Virus record (IMG/VR): IMGVR_UViG_3300042324_001856
Coordinates: 1 to 24,152 of that record
Reading direction: 5' to 3' (one strand)
DNA length: 24,152 bases
Source of the DNA: a virus
This document shows, piece after piece, positions 2,408 to 20,676 of this stretch (positions are counted from its first letter, which is position 1; every line of letters begins with the position of its first letter). A program made the position numbers and the translations under genes. The notes beneath the pieces were generated by a model that was not told where the DNA came from, did no database searches, and was given only the letters and a program-made list of their open reading frames with translations.

Positions 2408-2776
2408 TTACACTGTTTTGTCTAATCCTAAAACTACAGCACCAAAAGATGTCGATGCGTTGTAGTAATTGTCAGGCAATGTTGTTTGATTGATTGTCGT
2501 AACAACAATCTCTTTTCTTCCAGATTCAAGATTGCTAACTTTAACCGGAATACTTTCATACGAATTTGAAGATATTCCTGATGACAAATAAAAAATCACT
2601 TTTAAATTACCGTTCTCATCAGAGATTAAAGCCCCACCTAGTTTCTTACCAAATTGTTTAACCATACTCGTTACCTTGACCTTATCAAAGTAAAAGTAAT
2701 GAGTGGTGTGAGGTCTTAAGCCATAAAACTCTAGAATTATGTCTCTCTCTTTGAATCGAAGTTTTCTTTGTCCCAT
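2408..2776 (-). CDS. Small structural protein, 122 aa
   Basis: A short protein with the pattern L-R-P-H-T-T-H-Y-F-Y-F-D (about residues 20-31), followed by GGALISDENGNLKVIFYL at about 46-64. This beta-sandwich-like motif (a display strand, a GG-x-L-x-[ST]-D turn and an x-G/K-x-F-Y-x strand) recurs inside large tail proteins of marine T4-like phages. Here it is a stand-alone gene. It lies between the DUF4815-type protein (32-base gap) and the 754-aa protein (1-base gap). No Shine-Dalgarno precedes the ATG; instead a perfect TATAAATA late-promoter box ends 6 bases upstream. It is probably a minor component of the peripheral baseplate or fibre attachment. Exact function unknown. Confidence 0.75.
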   Translation of the reverse strand: MGQRKLRFKERDIILEFYGLRPHTTHYFYFDKVKVTSMVKQFGKKLGGALISDENGNLKVIFYLSSGISSNSYESIPVKVSNLESGRKEIVVTTINQTTLPDNYYNASTSFGAVVLGLDKTV

Positions 2777-2782
2777 AACTTT

Positions 2783-2790
2783 TATTTATA
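2783..2790 (-). promoter_or_regulatory. T4-type late promoter box TATAAATA
   Basis: TATAAATA on the minus strand is identical to the T4 late -10 consensus. It lies in the 32-base gap before the 122-aa gene, with AAAGTT separating it from the ATG. T4-like late transcription starts about 6 bases downstream of this box, which would place the start at or next to the ATG. It would drive the 122-aa gene, the 754-aa gene and the gene leaving the left edge. Confidence 0.65.
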
Positions 2791-5800: not shown

Positions 5801-7155
5801 TGGTTATAAACTGTGTTTCTGTTTTCTTTAGAGGCAACACCATCACTAAATTCAACAAGCGATAGGAATTCAGAGTTGGCTGAACCAATGTCGGTATTAA
5901 CAACAAACAGTGTTGGTCTTATTCTTAGGCGATCAGCACCAGGGGCTGTCTCATTGTATGTGTTTGCAGCATTGTCATAAAGTGAGGAATCAGTCGTATA
6001 CTTAACAATCGATTCGTCTGATGTGAATCCAACTGATATGTTGTCAGGTAACGTGGAATATTTTGATACAATAACGCTTTGAGGAATAACACGAGAGAAT
6101 GTTCCCTTTTGGTAAATTACACCCTCCGTAACACCAAAAGAATAACCGTATCCCACAGGTGCAGCAAACGTGCCTGGAGCTACGCGCACCTTTGCCTTGT
6201 AAGACCTTGCTGCTAAATCTAAAGTGGATACAGAAGCAGATGCTGAAGCTGGTTTAATAACAACTTGTGGCAATGTTGTGTAATCTTTACCGGCATTCGA
6301 CAAAACTAAGTTTTGAACTACGCCAAGTGAGTCAGTAATAATAGAACCAGTAGCTCCACTACCAATTTGAGAGATAACATTAGCAACGGCACTGGAAGTA
6401 TTGCCAGTGATGTTGTAACCTGTAGAAACGGTCCATGTATTGGAATTGGCCGATGTATTTGCTAGCTGCTCTGAGTTGATTGGTTTGATTGAAAGGATCT
6501 TAGTGTTTGAAGTCAATCCACTTGCAATACCAACAATCTGCTGTCTAGCACCTGAAGTAGCTTGAGTAAAGATTTCACCATTAGTAAAAGCACCGCTAGA
6601 TACTTGCACAGTGACAGCACTAATTACATGCAACGTATCTGAGTTAGCAAATCCAAGACCACCATTGTTAACATCAACGTCAAAAAGATTGTTTTCTTTG
6701 CTGAAAATCTCCAACACATCATCATTAGAGAACGCACTCAGGTTATAAGTATTTCCTGAGTTAGTGTATTGTAAGAACAGGGTGTTTAGATCTGGGCTCT
6801 TTGACTCAAAACCAGTGGCGTAGTTGACGACAATAGCTTGAAGATTAGCAGAGTTCTTAACAAAGAAGCCAACGTAATCTTGGGGATTGACTGGCTGTCC
6901 ATCCTCTTGTAAATCTTTGATCTTTGCGTAAGCTAGAAGAGGATTATAAATGAAGTTTACACCACTAACAATTGTACCACTTTTAAAAACATGATCTCCA
7001 AATCTCTCTACTTGTTTTTGTAGGATTGTCTGGAGTTGGTTTAATTCGCGAGTTTGTAAGGCAACACCAGGCTTGAAGAGGATTTTATAAAAATCCTTGT
7101 CTTCATTGAAGTCATCCCAATAGGGAGTGGTGTTGAAATTGGTTTCTAATGACAT
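2809..7155 (-). CDS. DUF4815-type giant structural protein, 1448 aa
   Basis: The N-terminus (TTPYWDDFNEDKDFYKILFK, then PGVALQTRELNQLQTILQKQ and a GTIVSG motif) is the hallmark start of the DUF4815 phage structural family, which follows gp8 in marine T4-like phages. The body is beta-rich with several small modules: an F-T-N-G-E-x-F-x-Q element near residue 190, a GKDYTTLPQVVI element near 290, and a G-T-S-T-T-F-A-T-D module near 740-800. A short coiled coil (INKLEKRIDSLEKQVALNTL) lies at about 1153-1175. The last 200 residues are Pro/Thr-rich around a small domain. Position relative to gp8 suggests it takes the place of T4 gp9/gp10-type outer baseplate proteins, possibly anchoring fibres; this is inferred. 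The start is supported by an AGAGG Shine-Dalgarno spaced well from the ATG, in the 9-base gap after gp8. Confidence 0.85.
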   Translation of the reverse strand: MSLETNFNTTPYWDDFNEDKDFYKILFKPGVALQTRELNQLQTILQKQVERFGDHVFKSGTIVSGVNFIYNPLLAYAKIKDLQEDGQPVNPQDYVGFFVKNSANLQAIVVNYATGFESKSPDLNTLFLQYTNSGNTYNLSAFSNDDVLEIFSKENNLFDVDVNNGGLGFANSDTLHVISAVTVQVSSGAFTNGEIFTQATSGARQQIVGIASGLTSNTKILSIKPINSEQLANTSANSNTWTVSTGYNITGNTSSAVANVISQIGSGATGSIITDSLGVVQNLVLSNAGKDYTTLPQVVIKPASASASVSTLDLAARSYKAKVRVAPGTFAAPVGYGYSFGVTEGVIYQKGTFSRVIPQSVIVSKYSTLPDNISVGFTSDESIVKYTTDSSLYDNAANTYNETAPGADRLRIRPTLFVVNTDIGSANSEFLSLVEFSDGVASKENRNTVYNQLAKEFETRTFESSGNFVIDPFRSSTKEKVSNTTHVSVVVDPGTAYISGKRVETSGNLSKDVQKSNTVFSKANQTITANYGNYVVVKELAGFFDFKSGTTVNLYDTAKTLLTSVSTGAITPAGTLIGSARMRSIVYQSGTIGTPNATYRLYLFDVTMNAGKSFSDVKSFYFDSTYDGICDAVLEADGTSSVNVAILKDTNNPDIIFKTGVKAVKSISDISYTYRTSTENLTLNANGTIEITAPTTYTFPYSGSLSLSAAQKADFIIAPVSNTNTSNTTGTSSGNTTSANLVGTSTTFATDYAAGDYISVYTNAVSYDVKRVENVVNNTLIILNSALTAANSSTNTALFLPAFYPLDLSRSTRTITTSANAAVATVDLSETLAASANVVAFYNIRIPSAVQINKDLNRDLYVKVYTGNNATVSASGNNTTGPWSLGVPDTFRLKAVYFGNTASSTDVTKHFFVNSYNDGDVVKNAELRLVPGSDLAISNTQWLLAKFDAFDVNTSEGFITINSYNDIINDATGYSNNTFINRLEVPEVLTSDGRYYDGIDTFDFRPFTSNTAAYSTTVGGATVNPANTQTLNSDEKYFPVPDSQVTFDIEFYGSRIDRVVVNKNTLISVIQGAPDVANLKDPGAPADSITVNRLFVPPYPSLPSALSNTTFQILDKRVGNESSIVNGRQQAYTINNLNSSADTRSQPKRYSMSQINKLEKRIDSLEKQVALNTLEKQITELVIPSSNDSGKDRFKNAFLVDNFDDAFVVDRTSLESTAYIDSQNSELLPLTTIFNVESIFDRSDAATANNIHQNKTLLLPYEEYTIVSQLSASEPRVVRSVPAAIETAAVTYYPVDDYVYTPPDPIVTTTPTVAVVPIVQPPVVQKPAMVRVITDGAVEYYEADFVAEFYQNNREWVESRYGVPEFSGFRAGDETAVFDVVLTSKVSIPEVQSTPAEVIVVTTTIDPPQTQTTSEPYIQITDANAEEASMTRDTGGGKYVEDFSNMQY

Positions 7156-7164
7156 CTAGTCCTC

Positions 7165-8925
7165 TTAAAACTTCAAAATTAGTTTTATAGATTCTGATTG
7201 GCTGGCATTTCTCTCAATCGGATCTACGTTTTCTATGTATAACACCTCTCCACTGCCCTGAACAATGTCAGATGGCAAGCGGCTGTTTAATGTAACTGAG
7301 GCTCCTGAATTGACACCAATCATTGTGTTTCCTGTATTAAGCACACCTCTTAAGTCAGACAAATAATAATAATTAGCATCATTTGAATGATAGTATGCAT
7401 TTGCAGTAGCTACATCAATCTGAAACACCTTTTCATCTTCTAAGAAAGTGCCGGAACCAGCTGTGTACGTGTATCGTTCTCTGTTATCGAATGTGTTAAA
7501 GTCTTTTGCTTGATCATTGATAACATAACTGATAGCGTTAGCAGTAGCACCAGAAGTACCACCTGTAATGATCTTGTTTGTTACAAAAATACCTGTAACA
7601 TTTGATACAGCAACCGTCGTAGTCGTACTTCCTTTTACAATACCAGTCGCATTGGAATCTGTTTGGGTAACGACTTCGTTATCGGTAAACACACCAGTAG
7701 GAGTTGCAATTGTCAAGGTTACATTTGCAAACAAAGGATCCTTTAATAATCCAATTGTTCTATAATCATTGGAGACTGGGATCGTACCTGATTCGTTATT
7801 AGCAAAAGTCACACTGATGCCCAGGTACTTACCACCCAGTTCAAATTCAGGATCCTTACCGTGGCCACCCTTGGGTCCTAGAACAACGTAAACAGAGGCT
7901 GCATTTGAAACACCTCCTGTATTACCAAGTACAGTAGTAGTAGCGTAAGTGTATCCTGCACCTCTTTCAATAATTTCAATTCCGGAAATTGAATTAGAAG
8001 AGTTTGTATTAACTAAAGCTCTAGCAACAGCACCAGTTCCATCACCTTCAACCAATACAGAAGGAGTAATTTCATAAACTGATGTAATATCCGGAGTTAT
8101 GCTAAATCCACTATCAACAGTAATCTTTTTCTGAGTACCAATAACTGTATAATCAACAATCTTTCTTATTTGTCCTAAACCAGTTCCACCTTTAATGTAG
8201 ATATAGCTGTTATCATAGAAATTATTAGATGCAACAGCATTGTTTGCAATCGTAAATATTGTTGGGTCTCCACCGATAGTTAAATCAGATGAAATGAACG
8301 TATTGGAAAGATATGTGTTATAATTTGATCCAGCATAACTAACTAAAACAACATCAATTGATCCAGAAACTGCGTTACCAGAAACATTGGCATTTGGAAT
8401 AACAGGTACATATTCATCTGTAGCAAACTTAGTAAAGTTTGAGCTATCAATTGTGTACATATACTTCCAGACATAACCGTCCGAAGTACTGTAAAATTCA
8501 TCATCGGCACCAGTGTCGTTGAAGTTTGGTGATATAGTTGATGGCGCCCCATTATTATTTCCAAGCACCTTAAACACGTGGAAAGAGGATACAGCATTGA
8601 CTACAGCATAGTAATTATTTACAGTAATATCCGTGTTACCACTGTAAGCTGTATAAACAGTATTCGATACCCAATCATACCTTGGAATCATTACCGTTAC
8701 ATCATTGTTGGAAACCTTTTTTCCAAATACCATCAATTTGTAAGGATCAATATTGACCGTGTCGTTGGTGTTTGTTAAATTAGGAATGGTTTCATCACCA
8801 CCAGCATAAGGTGTATGACGACCAGCAAACACATAGTAAATGCTATTAGCAGTTTCGGAGATAGACTCTCTGAACTGCTTAGCGTTATGCAAGTTTAGAT
8901 AATTGGTAACTAGTTTTGTAGACAT
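7165..8925 (-). CDS. 8: Baseplate wedge protein gp8
   Basis: A homologue of T4 gp8, which joins gp7 and gp10 in the baseplate wedge. Shared landmarks are the N-terminal block ending YYVFAGRHTPY (T4 has IFITFGRSEPW), an IPRYDW motif (T4 IPRRDW), SDGYVWKYMYTI at about residues 146-157 (T4 GDGYVWEYLFEI), and the C-terminal run GEVLYIENVDPIERNASQSE ending in KLILKF (T4 GEMIYMENRPP ... NILFTF). At 586 aa it is far longer than T4 gp8 (334 aa). The surplus is an internal beta-rich region at about 200-540, including a GAGYTY element and an F-T-D-N-E-V-V-T-Q module near 411-460. No Shine-Dalgarno is visible, but a CATAAATA late-promoter box sits 6 bases before the ATG. The gap to the upstream gp7-like gene is 14 bases. 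Confidence 0.9.
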   Translation of the reverse strand: MSTKLVTNYLNLHNAKQFRESISETANSIYYVFAGRHTPYAGGDETIPNLTNTNDTVNIDPYKLMVFGKKVSNNDVTVMIPRYDWVSNTVYTAYSGNTDITVNNYYAVVNAVSSFHVFKVLGNNNGAPSTISPNFNDTGADDEFYSTSDGYVWKYMYTIDSSNFTKFATDEYVPVIPNANVSGNAVSGSIDVVLVSYAGSNYNTYLSNTFISSDLTIGGDPTIFTIANNAVASNNFYDNSYIYIKGGTGLGQIRKIVDYTVIGTQKKITVDSGFSITPDITSVYEITPSVLVEGDGTGAVARALVNTNSSNSISGIEIIERGAGYTYATTTVLGNTGGVSNAASVYVVLGPKGGHGKDPEFELGGKYLGISVTFANNESGTIPVSNDYRTIGLLKDPLFANVTLTIATPTGVFTDNEVVTQTDSNATGIVKGSTTTTVAVSNVTGIFVTNKIITGGTSGATANAISYVINDQAKDFNTFDNRERYTYTAGSGTFLEDEKVFQIDVATANAYYHSNDANYYYLSDLRGVLNTGNTMIGVNSGASVTLNSRLPSDIVQGSGEVLYIENVDPIERNASQSESIKLILKF

Positions 8926-8931
8926 ATAACT

Positions 8932-8939
8932 TATTTATG
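8932..8939 (-). promoter_or_regulatory. Late promoter-like box CATAAATA before gp8
   Basis: CATAAATA on the minus strand differs at one base from the T4 late consensus. It lies in the 14-base gap between the gp7-like stop and the gp8 ATG, with AGTTAT in between. The 6-base spacing is identical to the boxes before the 122-aa gene and gp4, and gp8 has no Shine-Dalgarno. It would give gp8 and the downstream genes a late promoter of their own. Confidence 0.6.
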
Positions 8940-11750
8940 CTAGGAAATAACAATTTTCGAAGACACATTAGCACTTACATCCAGATCGGAAGAAAGAATC
9001 ACCTTACCAAACATTCTTGTGCCAGCTACGTGAATAATCTTTTTAAGGACCTCAGAGTATTTTGTAAAAGGAACTTTGGATTGAATCTCGTAACTATATT
9101 CTTGGTAGTAGTCACTATCCAAAATTTTCTTATCACTAGAAGCAAAACCTCTAGTGGTAGAGAAGTACCCCTCACCTACACCCTGTTTATTAAGAGTTGT
9201 TTGTGCAGTAACAATGTAAGGAGATCCTTCTTTTTCTAAAAGAACGTTCTCACCATCGATATAACCAAATCCTGAATCAAGAACGGTAACACCACTTACG
9301 ACAGCATTAGCAACTTGCACGTTAGCACTGATATCTGCATTCTCACCAATTGGCAAAGAATCAGCCTCTTCTGTTACACTTGCAATAGTAGCTTGTGCAC
9401 CAGTTGTAGTACCAATAATAGTGTTGGCTGGATAAAAAGTATTTTCGAAACTCAGTCTCTTAACTACAAGTACAGTGTTGTTAGATCCCTCTTTAACTTG
9501 ACCAACTGCTGTTGTTGCTATTGTTACTGCTGTGTTTACAAGAACAATATTAGCAGTAGCATTAGTAGTTAATGTTTGGAGCTGGTATCCATTGGTATTT
9601 GTATTTTGGAATGATCCGGAAGTTGAATAAAGTTTAACTGATCCACTACCACCCGTGATGCCTGAAGAGTAAACAAAGCCTGTAGCTATGTTTGAAGTGC
9701 CGTTGCTTTGATAAACATACTCACTAGCTTCAAAAGTGCTTGTGGATGAACCATTAGCAGCAGTACCAGAGAAGTTTGTAACATTTAACTGAACAGCAGC
9801 TGAGTTAGATGTTTGTTTGACAATTTCACCGATAGCAAACAACTTAGTTGGACTACTAATTGTGATGGAAAAATCTTTACGTTTATAACCAGCAACGTCA
9901 GGCTCGTAAACTAAAACAAATGGATCTATGTTGTAATCTGTTCCAGGATTGATAGATGTAAGTGAAGCTACAGTGCCGATAACCGTGCTGTTATATCTCA
10001 GAGCATTAAGCAAAGTAGTATTAATGTCAGCACCAGGATACTTAACAAAGCCGTATCCTACTGCATTAGCATTGTTAGGACTCAAATCAAGATTGATATC
10101 GAGAAAAGGAATGCTACCAGTATTGTTTGCTGAAAGTAAGTCAGGTGTAATAAGCACTGTTTCTTCATTATCTAAAGAACCTACTTCAAAATCAGCATCT
10201 GAACCAGAGCTTACAAAATCAATGTTTGCGTAGCTGTTAGATGTTGAACCAACAACATAGGAAAATATAGATGATGGATAAAAAGTATTTAAAACAGAAT
10301 CCAAGCCAACGTGGGTAGCATTGGAACCAATCAATGTCCCCCTTGCTGTAATGTCTGCGTTGTTAGCAACTACAGCAGTAAAAGAAAGATTGGAAGTATA
10401 AGTGTTTACTGTAGCTATTGTCGCGTTATTAGTAACAAGTCTAAAAGAGGTATTAGTTGCAAAAACGTTACCACTGATTGGTCTTAATAATAAAGATCCT
10501 CTTGTAGTGTTAGCAGTAGTAGCAGATAAAATTAAAGCATTTGCTGATGAAGTAGCATTGACTGTTTCAATTACTGAATTAGCTGTAAAGAGGGATATAT
10601 TAGAAGATGTGTCGTAAACTAAATCCACTAAGCTAGCTTTGAATACCAAGTTTGATGCAACAATATTACCAGATATATTATTAACTCTTACTGTACCTAC
10701 AGTATTTGATACCAAAGTAACAGAAACAATTCCAGCAGTTGCGTTAGCCACTGATGAGTTACCTTGAGCAAAAAGGATAGTATTGGCTGCAAAATACTGA
10801 GCATTCACAGCACTTGTGAACCCAACTCTCATTACCTGCTGAGATACATTTTCAAATCTACCAAACGTTGTGATCTGAGTGTTACTATTAGTCAATGAGT
10901 TATATCTCAAAACCTTGTCTGAGATATAAACACTTGCAGTATTAGAGAATCCAAAACCACCATCCTCAATTTTAAAATTAACTCTACCTGTAGCACTTGA
11001 AATAGATGTTACGATTGCTTTGGCGTTTTTACCATTATCAGAAACAACGTTAAATTCATCTCCAATAGCAAAATCTTGGCCGCCATTAAGTACGTCAAGT
11101 GTTGTTAAAGAACCAGTAATAGATGGAGCATTAAAAGTGTTTGTGTTTGAAGTTTCAACAACCTGCTCACCATAAATAAAATCACCCCTGACGTTAGACA
11201 AGAAGAGTACATCGATAAATTTACCATTAACCCTCTTCTTTACAACACTCTCACAAAAAGCTTTTGCTCCTGTAGAAACGCCAACAACCTCTTTATTAAC
11301 AAAAGAAGCGTTTCTTGAGGAGATAGTAACCTCCAAATATTTTGGCTTAACCCAAGTACCATCAGAGGATTTTAACAGATCTTGCCCAGGAAGATATACT
11401 GCAGAGTCTTGATTAAAAAGAGCTCTCATCGCAAGCTTGACGCTTTGCTCATTTCCCTTGTTTTGATATAAATCCAGAATGTTTCTAATAAACAATCTTT
11501 CATCTGATTGAACAGACAAAGGAAGATCTTTAAGGAAAGTTTCTTTGAAGTGAACTATGAATTCATCTACAGTTTTATCAACATCTCTGTATTCAATCAA
11601 GTTCCTCGCATAGTATGCTTGCTGCCCAGTAGTTTCCAACCACTTATAATAAGACTTAACAAATTCAATAAACAATGGTCCCTCTTCATTGTAGAAGGCA
11701 GGAAATTGTGATTGAATTAAAGGGGAAACTAAGTCTTCAATATTCTTCAT
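8940..11750 (-). CDS. 7: Baseplate wedge protein, gp7-like, 936 aa
   Basis: Lies between gp6 and gp8, where T4 encodes gp7 (1032 aa), the wedge core protein. Residues 1-140 carry the conserved block seen in marine T4-like counterparts: SQFPAFYNEEGPLFIEFVKS, then a YYKWLE motif, RNLIEYRDVD and a helix ending in a GNEQSVKLAMRALF-type segment. The C-terminal 75 residues include ILDSDYYQEYSYEIQS and a HVAGTRMFGKV motif, also typical. Between them lies about 700 residues of Asn/Thr/Ser/Val-rich beta sequence with repeated small elements (GGQDFAIGDEF, GTDYNIDPFVLVYEP, FAIGEIVKQTSN, GFGYIDGENV). Assignment to gp7 rests on position, size and the terminal domains. The start overlaps the gp6 stop as ATGA, so translation is coupled. 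Confidence 0.75.
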   Translation of the reverse strand: MKNIEDLVSPLIQSQFPAFYNEEGPLFIEFVKSYYKWLETTGQQAYYARNLIEYRDVDKTVDEFIVHFKETFLKDLPLSVQSDERLFIRNILDLYQNKGNEQSVKLAMRALFNQDSAVYLPGQDLLKSSDGTWVKPKYLEVTISSRNASFVNKEVVGVSTGAKAFCESVVKKRVNGKFIDVLFLSNVRGDFIYGEQVVETSNTNTFNAPSITGSLTTLDVLNGGQDFAIGDEFNVVSDNGKNAKAIVTSISSATGRVNFKIEDGGFGFSNTASVYISDKVLRYNSLTNSNTQITTFGRFENVSQQVMRVGFTSAVNAQYFAANTILFAQGNSSVANATAGIVSVTLVSNTVGTVRVNNISGNIVASNLVFKASLVDLVYDTSSNISLFTANSVIETVNATSSANALILSATTANTTRGSLLLRPISGNVFATNTSFRLVTNNATIATVNTYTSNLSFTAVVANNADITARGTLIGSNATHVGLDSVLNTFYPSSIFSYVVGSTSNSYANIDFVSSGSDADFEVGSLDNEETVLITPDLLSANNTGSIPFLDINLDLSPNNANAVGYGFVKYPGADINTTLLNALRYNSTVIGTVASLTSINPGTDYNIDPFVLVYEPDVAGYKRKDFSITISSPTKLFAIGEIVKQTSNSAAVQLNVTNFSGTAANGSSTSTFEASEYVYQSNGTSNIATGFVYSSGITGGSGSVKLYSTSGSFQNTNTNGYQLQTLTTNATANIVLVNTAVTIATTAVGQVKEGSNNTVLVVKRLSFENTFYPANTIIGTTTGAQATIASVTEEADSLPIGENADISANVQVANAVVSGVTVLDSGFGYIDGENVLLEKEGSPYIVTAQTTLNKQGVGEGYFSTTRGFASSDKKILDSDYYQEYSYEIQSKVPFTKYSEVLKKIIHVAGTRMFGKVILSSDLDVSANVSSKIVIS

Positions 11751-13534: not shown

Positions 13535-13963
13535 TTATCGGATCCTATTTAAAATGAGTTCTAAAGTGACAGGTTCAGCTTTATTTATTACGCTGAAAAC
13601 AATATTAATGTACATGGAATTCTGATCTGGGTTGCCAGAGACATTAACATCGATTACATTAGCTCTTGGCTCGTGATTTCCAATTGCGGTTTTAATTAAG
13701 TCTGCAACAACTTGCTCTGTAGATGGTGAGAAGTTTTCAAACAACATCTTTCTAATGTCGCTACCAAATGTAGGATTGAAGAATCTTTCACCCTTGTCAG
13801 TCAATAGAATGTTTCTAATTGACCTTTTAACTGAGTCTTCGTTCTTATAAGATAGCAGATCTTTCTTAACCAGCTCCAAATCAAAATTAGAGTAAAAGTC
13901 AGAATAGACTAGCGGTTTGGCAGTCTGCGGGGTTGTTTTTGTTTTTCTTACTACGATTGCCAT
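13535..13963 (-). CDS. 25: Baseplate wedge protein gp25 (GPW/gp25 family)
   Basis: A short lysozyme-like-fold protein that binds gp6 and contacts the sheath initiator region of the baseplate. Family features visible here are SVKRSIRNILLTDKGERFFN, a PTFGSDIRKMLFEN block and the RANVIDVNV strand near the C-terminus. It has 142 residues, close to T4 gp25 (132). An AGGCGG Shine-Dalgarno lies about 6 bases before the ATG and overlaps the end of gp5, one base separating the gp5 stop from this start. The C-terminus ends in NRIR, abutting gp6. Confidence 0.93.
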   Translation of the reverse strand: MAIVVRKTKTTPQTAKPLVYSDFYSNFDLELVKKDLLSYKNEDSVKRSIRNILLTDKGERFFNPTFGSDIRKMLFENFSPSTEQVVADLIKTAIGNHEPRANVIDVNVSGNPDQNSMYINIVFSVINKAEPVTLELILNRIR

Positions 13964-16845: not shown

Positions 16846-17933
16846 TATGCTCCACTCCCTGGCATAACATTACCCAATGAAGGTGATACTGTTCTATCAT
16901 ATCTTTCATCTTCATAGTCATTTCTCGTAACAACTCTGATCTCTTTGAAGTTTAAACCAATTTCAATATCCGTGGGTGAACCATCCTTAAAGAAAGCAGG
17001 CGTTCCATTAGGTGCATAATTGACCGTCATTGATTCTAAAACGGATTTTTGGATTTTGTAGGGTTCAATATCCTTAGGACCAAAAGATATATTAACAACA
17101 TCAGGGAAAGAAAACAATGGACCAGTTGAAGCTTCAGCACTTAGACCAGTTCCTGGAAGCATTCTTCTTTTGATTGTTTTAATAATCTTTTTAAGCAAAT
17201 CAGACTCTTGCTGATTCTTAGGAGAAAATCTAAATGTAAAACTATGAGTTCTTAATGTTAAATCTTGAAATATGGCCGCTAGATGGGGATTTGGTACTAA
17301 TCCAGTAGCCTTGTCTACATTAGCTTTTAATGTTTCATTTGTAATTAGATTGTCTCGAGCTAGAACGTAAGCTGATTCTGTCAAACTATTTCCCACAGCT
17401 CCAAATGCACCCGTTATTGCACCACCAACTTGACCTCCCAATCCAATTGTACCCTCCATACCTTTAGTAGCGCCTGCAAAAGCTGTTCCTATTACAGGAC
17501 CAAGTTTAGCATCATTGTATGTAACAGAAAAATTCTCATTTAAGCTGGAAGGTATTGGAAATACCACGACTACTGTTGGTTCATCCGTGGCAACTTTCAA
17601 TGCTGCTTCTTTGTGATACGATACAAAACTAAATTTAATAAAGTACTTACCTATGTCTTGTGGATAAGTTAAAACCTGTAGTTCATCTTTCCTATTCAAA
17701 GCATCTTTTGACACTTGAGCAGCTAAAGCACTTGGTGAATTACCAAAATCATTGTTTTTGAATTTGGTTATGGGTTTGTAACCCGCAGCAGAGGCAGCAC
17801 CTGCAACATCACCGAATTGGGTTTTGTTGTAAGATTGCTGTGTTTGTGATACAATACTACCTACTTTGTTTGCGAGTGCCGCTCCGGCCGCAAACCCAGC
17901 TACCGTGGCCGCGGCTTTAGAGAAAAACGCCAT
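16845..17933 (-). CDS. 48: Baseplate tail-tube cap gp48-like
   Basis: A 362-aa protein, essentially the length of T4 gp48 (364). The C-terminal third shows the family pattern: a VVNISFGPKDIEPYKIQKSV strand region followed by TVNYAPNGTPAFFKDGSPTD and EIGLNFKEIRVVTRNDY. T4 gp48 has FGPCQIQSIRFDKTPNG ... PSTFTLEITMREIITLNRASLY at the same place. The N-terminal 40 residues are Ala/Gly-rich and hydrophobic (AAATVAGFAAGAALANKVGS), and another Gly-rich stretch lies at about 150-185. gp48 sits on top of the hub and, with gp54, starts tube polymerisation. It is the first gene of the leftward operon. AGGAA about 8 bases before the ATG is the likely ribosome site. T4 encodes gp48 next to gp54; here gp54 is on the opposite strand about 1 kb away. 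Confidence 0.85.
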   Translation of the reverse strand: MAFFSKAAATVAGFAAGAALANKVGSIVSQTQQSYNKTQFGDVAGAASAAGYKPITKFKNNDFGNSPSALAAQVSKDALNRKDELQVLTYPQDIGKYFIKFSFVSYHKEAALKVATDEPTVVVVFPIPSSLNENFSVTYNDAKLGPVIGTAFAGATKGMEGTIGLGGQVGGAITGAFGAVGNSLTESAYVLARDNLITNETLKANVDKATGLVPNPHLAAIFQDLTLRTHSFTFRFSPKNQQESDLLKKIIKTIKRRMLPGTGLSAEASTGPLFSFPDVVNISFGPKDIEPYKIQKSVLESMTVNYAPNGTPAFFKDGSPTDIEIGLNFKEIRVVTRNDYEDERYDRTVSPSLGNVMPGSGA

Positions 17934-17938
17934 AAATA
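17931..17938 (+). promoter_or_regulatory. Late promoter-like box CATAAATA before gp4
   Basis: CATAAATA on the plus strand is one base off the T4 late consensus and lies 6 bases (TTTCCT) before the gp4 ATG. This is the same spacing as the boxes upstream of gp8 and the 122-aa gene. Its first three bases are the complement of the gp48 start codon, so the rightward promoter overlaps the start of the leftward operon. gp4 has no Shine-Dalgarno. No equally good box is seen for gp48 on the other strand. Confidence 0.55.
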
Positions 17939-17944
17939 TTTCCT

Positions 17945-18385
17945 ATGAGCTATAAAGGTTATTTTAAACCAAGGAATCCATCCAAATATATGGGAGACCC
18001 TACAACTATTATTTATCGTAGTAGTTGGGAGCTAAAATTAATGAGGTATCTGGATTCTCACTCTGATGTGATTAAATGGGCTAGTGAAGAGTTCAGTATA
18101 CCTTACGTTTCCCCGATTGACGGTAAAGTACATAGATACTTTCCCGACTTCCTGGTTAAAAAACGAAACCTAAACAAGTCTATTGAAACGGTCGTTATCG
18201 AAGTCAAACCCCACATACAAACAACGGCCCCCACAGTACAGAAAAAAGCTAACAAAAGATATTTAAGAGAAGTTTATACATGGGGTGTTAACAGTGCAAA
18301 GTGGGCTGCAGCAAAAAAATACTGTGACCACAGAGAGTGGAAATTTGTTATAATGACAGAACACGAACTAGGAATCAAATTTTAA
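17945..18385 (+). CDS. 4: Head completion protein gp4 (T4 gp4/gp50-65)
   Basis: Very similar to the T4 gp4 family throughout its 146 residues (T4 150). Recognisable blocks are GYFKPRNPSKYMGDP, IIYRSSWELKLMRYLDSH, WASEEFSIPYVSPIDGKVHR and YFPDFLV, then TVVIEVKPH and a C-terminal AKWAAAKKYC helix. The protein acts on the filled head before tail joining. The family has a TnsA-like restriction-endonuclease fold, and the expected acidic/lysine set is intact here: E29 in SSWEL, D68 in FPDF and E86-V-K88. It is the first gene of the rightward operon, starting 11 bases from the divergent gp48. Its TAA shares a base with the next ATG. Confidence 0.95.
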   Translation: MSYKGYFKPRNPSKYMGDPTTIIYRSSWELKLMRYLDSHSDVIKWASEEFSIPYVSPIDGKVHRYFPDFLVKKRNLNKSIETVVIEVKPHIQTTAPTVQKKANKRYLREVYTWGVNSAKWAAAKKYCDHREWKFVIMTEHELGIKF

Positions 18386-20560: not shown

Positions 20561-20676
20561 ATCATAAATATTCAATTAACGAACTTGAAAACCTGTATCC
20601 TTTTGAACGTGACATCTATGTTGACATGCTGAAAGATTATCTCGAAAGGGAAAAACAACGACTAGAAAGCAGATGA
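20497..20676 (+). CDS. gp51-position frame, expressed as -1 frameshift extension of gp26
   Basis: In the -1 frame after the slip site, 59 codons are open, beginning YIGLSHNSISNYYTLLFG and continuing MAQHHKYSINELENLYPFER, DIYVDMLKDYLE, then a basic end. Read as a separate gene it would start at the ATG at 20551 and encode 41 aa (20551-20676). However, no Shine-Dalgarno precedes that ATG and it is buried in the stem of the frameshift hairpin. The segment is helical, with a P-F-E-R-D-I-Y motif that recalls the C-terminal part of tail-assembly chaperones. It sits where T4 encodes gene 51 (hub assembly catalyst), but it is much shorter than T4 gp51 and I do not claim homology. Its TGA overlaps the ATG of the 471-aa gene (ATGA), so ribosomes finishing the fusion could re-initiate there. 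Confidence 0.7.
   Translation, partial: YIGLSHNSISNYYTLLFGMAQHHKYSINELENLYPFERDIYVDMLKDYLEREKQRLESR

Follow-up and report, generated by a model that had tools for sequence, protein, structure and literature searches.

Locus and putative late-promoter boxes

The window is the full IMG/VR record of 24,152 nt from a T4-like phage, in which baseplate, tail, head-closure and gp32 genes were recognized by profile matches. At T4-type late promoters, a sigma factor of the gp55 type recognizes a -10-like box together with gp33 and the sliding clamp (gp45). Seven copies of the word NATAAATA were found in the window, three of which stand exactly 6 nt before an ATG, namely those of a 122-aa gene, gp8 and gp4; the first base of the box is T, C and C, respectively, which gives the shared motif. 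The features are as follows:

2783..2790, minus strand: putative late-promoter box TATAAATA of the 122-aa gene (motif, spacing, conservation in orthologues)
2777..2782, minus strand: 6-nt spacer AAAGTT of the 122-aa gene; predicted mRNA 5' end at the last spacer base or at the A of the ATG (2776)
2408..2776, minus strand: 122-aa gene without Shine-Dalgarno (SD) sequence, ATG at 2776-2774, between the genes for a 1448-aa and a 754-aa protein
8932..8939, minus strand: putative late-promoter box CATAAATA of gp8, starting right after the stop codon of a gp7-like gene
8926..8931, minus strand: 6-nt spacer AGTTAT of gp8, read from the sequence; the ATG ends at 8923
7165..8925, minus strand: gp8, baseplate wedge subunit, 586 aa (phrog_438, E 3e-91, residues 4-586)
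17931..17938, plus strand: putative late-promoter box CATAAATA of gp4 (motif, spacing, gp4 relatives)
17939..17944, plus strand: 6-nt spacer TTTCCT of gp4, ATG to 17947; the minus strand carries the SD of gp48 (AGGA)
17945..18385, plus strand: gp4, 146 aa, head closure / head completion, oriented divergently to gp48 (phrog_218, E 4e-58, residues 1-144)
13582..13589, minus strand: box AATAAATA within gp25 (3' portion), 47 nt upstream of the gp6 ATG; may be a late promoter of the leadered kind, but is coding as well
18010..18017, minus strand: box GATAAATA, antisense in gp4 and 76 nt upstream of the gp48 ATG; may be a late promoter of the leadered kind for gp48

Not every box was taken as a promoter. 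The copy at 11171 was rejected as it is antisense within the gp7-like gene, and so was the copy at 20563, which encodes part of HHKYSI in a small ORF. This latter box (CATAAATA, 20563-20570) lies inside the codons of an unlisted ORF (MAQHHKYSINELENLYPFERDIYVDMLKDYLEREKQRLESR) which, by its position, is possibly a small baseplate-hub assembly gene.

The genes behind the near boxes are gp4, gp8 and one gene in the tail-protein region; thus, NATAAATA stands before late genes. The 122-aa gene has no Pfam match. Between 142 and 7155, the 1448-aa gene, the 754-aa gene and, weakly, the 122-aa gene match parts of phrog_358 (2056 positions), as though a single large gene of other phages had been broken up in this genome and the late box lay within the break.

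The initial annotation had placed a box exactly 6 nt before the ATG of all three genes, and this arrangement held against controls: ATAAATA-N6-ATG occurs three times in the window at an expectation of 0.17, and none of 100 dinucleotide shuffles reached three. In the 30-nt stretches that precede 17 gene starts, the word is present at spacing 6 alone, three times, and none of 10,000 shuffles of these stretches gave it three times at one spacing. Chance matches in an A+T-rich genome, or wrongly chosen start codons, would agree with the GC content of 0.377 and with TATAAATA by itself not being over-represented in the window (one found, 1.96 expected), but the shuffles, and the permuted-word controls given below, argue against chance, as does the layout being kept among gp4 relatives despite different upstream DNA. 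Wrong starts are opposed by the lack of any earlier in-frame start codon in the three ORFs, by family profiles aligning from residue 1 (gp4) and residue 4 (gp8), and by near-box sites which coincide with annotated starts in Pelagibacter phage HTVC008M. We regard this explanation as very improbable.

At gp4, the same 14 bases (17931-17944; reverse complement AGGAAATATTTATG) form the box and spacer and, on the other strand, the SD and start codon of gp48, the first three bases of the box being the complement of that start codon. This overlap is another cause for part of the conservation of the gp4 box and spacer.

Shine-Dalgarno sequences in the window

SD strength was expressed as anti-SD pairing energy. 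The values for the 122-aa gene, gp8 and gp4 are +1.6, -1.0 and +1.6 kcal/mol, i.e. none of the three has an SD, and those of the 1448-aa gene, gp26, gp53 and gp25 are -5.8, -6.4, -7.8 and -5.7 kcal/mol, which bears out the division into SD-less and SD-bearing genes made in the initial annotation. An SD is also present at gp6 (-4.0 kcal/mol), and gp48 has -4.2 kcal/mol. Further genes of the window without SD are the 754-aa gene, gp7-like, gp2, gp19/54-like, and the 471-aa and 493-aa genes; most SD-less genes without a near box overlap or abut the preceding gene. Since such coupled genes lack an SD as well, its absence alone is not diagnostic of the box genes, and a rule equating a missing SD with a leaderless message was rejected.

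These tightly coupled SD-less genes would agree with a reading in which the boxes are late promoters, but productive translation proceeds on read-through transcripts by translational coupling, leaderless RNA being a minor by-product. The start of gp8 comes 14 nt past the gp7-like stop codon, and that of the 122-aa gene 32 nt past the 1448-aa gene; being downstream of same-strand genes, both may also be expressed from longer transcripts. For gp4, however, no same-strand gene precedes the box in the window, where one sigma-70-like match at chance level was found. Coupling also leaves unexplained the sharp spacing of 5-6 nt, the exclusive use of ATG and the pyrimidine at -1 reported below, and is therefore considered unlikely as the main route.

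Box spacing in relatives

As the record is a fragment, the genome-wide test of spacing was done on relatives. Through gp8 and gp4, 160 IMG/VR loci were collected, the distance was taken from the box to the first ATG, and the 20 remaining permutations of the word's seven letters served as control words. Outside HTVC008M and parts of Mosig, starts were taken from a simple ORF caller. The distances are bimodal: they peak sharply at 5-6 nt and form a second, broad class over 18-38 nt, in which an SD is usually present. At 5-6 nt, 29 distinct sites were found (13 at 5, 16 at 6) vs about 2.5 for the permuted words, which give about 1.1-1.4 sites at 5 and at 6 nt and no peak; many sites are orthologous and hence not independent, so that the counts overstate independence. 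No site has a spacing of 7 nt across the 160 loci and few have 9-16 nt; the latter would leave a short leader that could hardly accommodate an SD, and this range is nearly empty. The enrichment test put forward in the initial annotation thus showed spacings of 5 and 6 nt to be in strong excess, specifically for this word. A spacing of 6 nt applies to the genes of the window, but is not the sole value, since relatives have 5 or 6 and sometimes 8 nt.

Within the family of the window, 13 distinct sites occur at 5, 6 or 8 nt vs about 0.7 from control words. Orthologues of the 122-aa gene have the box at one of these distances in G002, G003, G006, G007, G010 and L008. The gp8 box is conserved at 6 nt in G001, G002, G003, G006, L007, L008 and L011 and is missing in some close relatives; that of gp4 is at 6 nt in close relatives, once at 5. 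A wider pooled set including complete genomes has 54 sites at 5-6 nt.

Alternatively, an A+T-rich word near the ATG could act in the mRNA, as a translation enhancer or a RegA-like repressor operator, and be no promoter. In T4-type phages, A+U-rich sites close to start codons are bound by RegA (PMC3014915), which HTVC008M encodes. Nevertheless, the 20 permuted words give no peak, a spacing of 7 nt hardly occurs, the target genes mostly encode late virion proteins, and the word is found again at 18-38 nt upstream, accompanied by an SD, as a promoter would be. An element of this kind is scarcely credible as the cause of the pattern.

Two further arrangements were seen upstream of gp4. In L189 the box ends 1 nt before the gp4 ATG (at 10001), which is too close for the T4 start geometry. 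Boxes in both directions (ATAAATA ... TATTTAT) are present in L188, L199, L214, L226, L242 and T4, which suggests paired divergent late promoters in lineages without the abutting layout.

Named phages and late-transcription machinery

HTVC008M has eight genes (≥ 60 aa) with the box at exactly 5 nt vs 0.1 expected from controls and three more at 7-8 nt, each near-box site being at an annotated start. Among them are gp48, gp25, gp2, a putative tape measure, a baseplate protein and CsgF; genes with a predicted leaderless message start at 6280, 7562, 16007, 18916, 19456, 31132 and 49760. Genes of this phage with the box at ≥ 18 nt have an SD, and most of its predicted leaderless sites sit in gaps of 8-32 nt. 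Mosig has six sites at 5 nt, including gp2, at annotated starts, with gp25 at 8 nt; Melnitz has three at 5 nt. No sites at 4-8 nt were found in T4, KVP40 (first 220 kb), S-PM2, Syn9, OC, phiM12 and Cr30, and a single site, close to the control level, was found in each of P-SSM2 and AG-345-F15. The layout is therefore no general by-product of the box, given its absence from T4, KVP40, S-PM2, Syn9, OC and phiM12.

A limitation to phages of Alphaproteobacteria was rejected, as the trait is missing from phiM12 and the Ochrobactrum phage OC, and as a close relative, G002, has a permuted tmRNA of betaproteobacterial type (L088 16349-16713, minus strand, and L089; RF01850, 125.9 bits; tag ANDERFALAA). 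This tmRNA, hinting at a betaproteobacterial host, adjoins a cluster of about 19 tRNA genes.

Genes for gp55 and gp45 are present in HTVC008M, Mosig, Melnitz, G023, G026, G029 and G031. Relatives G002, G003 and G010 encode gp33; gp55 and gp45 were not found in the fragments of the window's family.

Predicted transcription start and leaderless signatures

A pyrimidine followed by a purine is a common transcription start. The T4 late box spans -13 to -6 (PMC1524935); hence, +1 would fall on the A of the ATG with a 5-nt spacer and one base earlier with a 6-nt spacer. In the 5-nt class, a pyrimidine is found at -1 in 35/39 sites vs 94/213 (44%) at the same position of leadered promoters (p = 5e-8), which fits a predicted pyrimidine-purine start. 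At position 6 after the box, leadered promoters have A in 64%, and the 6-nt class has T in 16/16 sites, suggesting a purine start on the A of the ATG in this class also; because the T of gp4 is constrained by the opposite SD too, only gp8, the 122-aa gene and a few others are informative here. All 54 start codons at 5-6 nt are ATG, with no GTG or TTG, vs 162 ATG and 17 others among leadered sites (p = 0.015), which fits the expectation for leaderless translation (PMC3616915). Median anti-SD energy in the pooled set is +0.8 for near-box sites vs -5.05 for leadered sites. The three signatures, ATG-only starts, a pyrimidine at -1 and no SD, all fit leaderless mRNAs.

Very probably, then, the three boxes are T4-type late promoters placed such that transcription starts at the A of the ATG or one base before, giving leaderless mRNAs of gp4, gp8 and the 122-aa gene. 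From the sequence patterns we infer, with strong support, the promoter activity, the exact 5' end and the leaderless translation. The box would be read by a sigma factor of the gp55 type, together with gp33 and the sliding clamp, and the resulting messages would have a leader of 0-1 nt. Ribosomes recognizing a 5'-terminal AUG would translate them without SD pairing. Leadered promoters, whose boxes lie about 18-38 nt upstream and are usually followed by an SD, would be used by the same phages as well. The initial annotation had proposed systematic use of leaderless late mRNAs; this stands insofar as the layout appears as one of two standard layouts, but leadered promoters with SD coexist with it.

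Evolution and significance

The gp4 box is 5 or 6 nt from the ATG in 32/75 distinct gp4 rows; in T4 the box of this gene lies 26 nt upstream and an SD is present. On a gp4 tree based on few columns and with long branches, the layout label needs ten changes, at least five of them forced, compared to a shuffled mean of 24.6. The layout of gp4 thus appears clustered and yet repeatedly switched, and a single origin is unsupported given these changes on a short tree with long branches. In the T4 superfamily, the leaderless late layout has apparently switched several times. With most predicted leaderless sites of HTVC008M in short gaps, genome compaction is a plausible driver. A full late promoter and its start can be contained in 13 nt, short enough to fit where genes are closely packed or divergent.

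A wider proposal would make leaderless late mRNAs a switchable, lineage-wide mode of the T4 superfamily, in which orthologous virion genes shift repeatedly between leadered and leaderless and some phages favour leaderless messages late by altering the ribosome (e.g. bS21 of HTVC008M), thereby creating a translation route distinct from that of SD-led host mRNAs. We hold it to be doubtful as a whole, and its ribosomal part is speculation. HTVC008M encodes ribosomal protein bS21 at 91228-91431; none was found in the 22 other records searched, many of them fragments. Being confined to HTVC008M among the 23 records, bS21 is not supported as a general partner of the layout.

Late genes of aquatic T4-like phages would need to be read differently, and gene finders would gain a start-codon rule. 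The findings also raise the question how the virion proteins of SD-less near-box genes are translated. Late-promoter prediction in pelagimyophages has been reported to be unsuccessful (PMC7029224), which the near-box layout may help to explain.

Comparison with known systems

No earlier report of leaderless late mRNAs in T4-like phages was found in a collection of open-access literature, so that priority is not certain. The Melnitz paper gives 15 late promoters and, in the passages covered, has the word "leaderless" in a reference title only (PMC9004378).

NATAAATA is known as the late promoter of the cyanophages S-PM2 and Syn9 (PMC2984593). Cyanophage late promoters share the degenerate first base, but S-PM2 and Syn9 are without sites at 4-8 nt. 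T4 late promoters (TATAAATA at -13 to -6) have the same box word at the same genes (baseplate, head completion), and relatives with complete genomes have homologues of gp55, gp33 and gp45. T4 differs in having no box within 11 nt of an ATG, and 24/24 of its boxes at 15-44 nt have SD-like letters. For Sinorhizobium meliloti, 171 leaderless transcription start sites have been described with the 5' end on the first base of AUG, and AUG only (PMC3616915). Our candidates are predicted to have this 5' end, share the AUG start and have no SD, but those of S. meliloti are mapped host transcripts, whereas here a phage late-sigma promoter stands at virion genes and the 5' ends are predicted.
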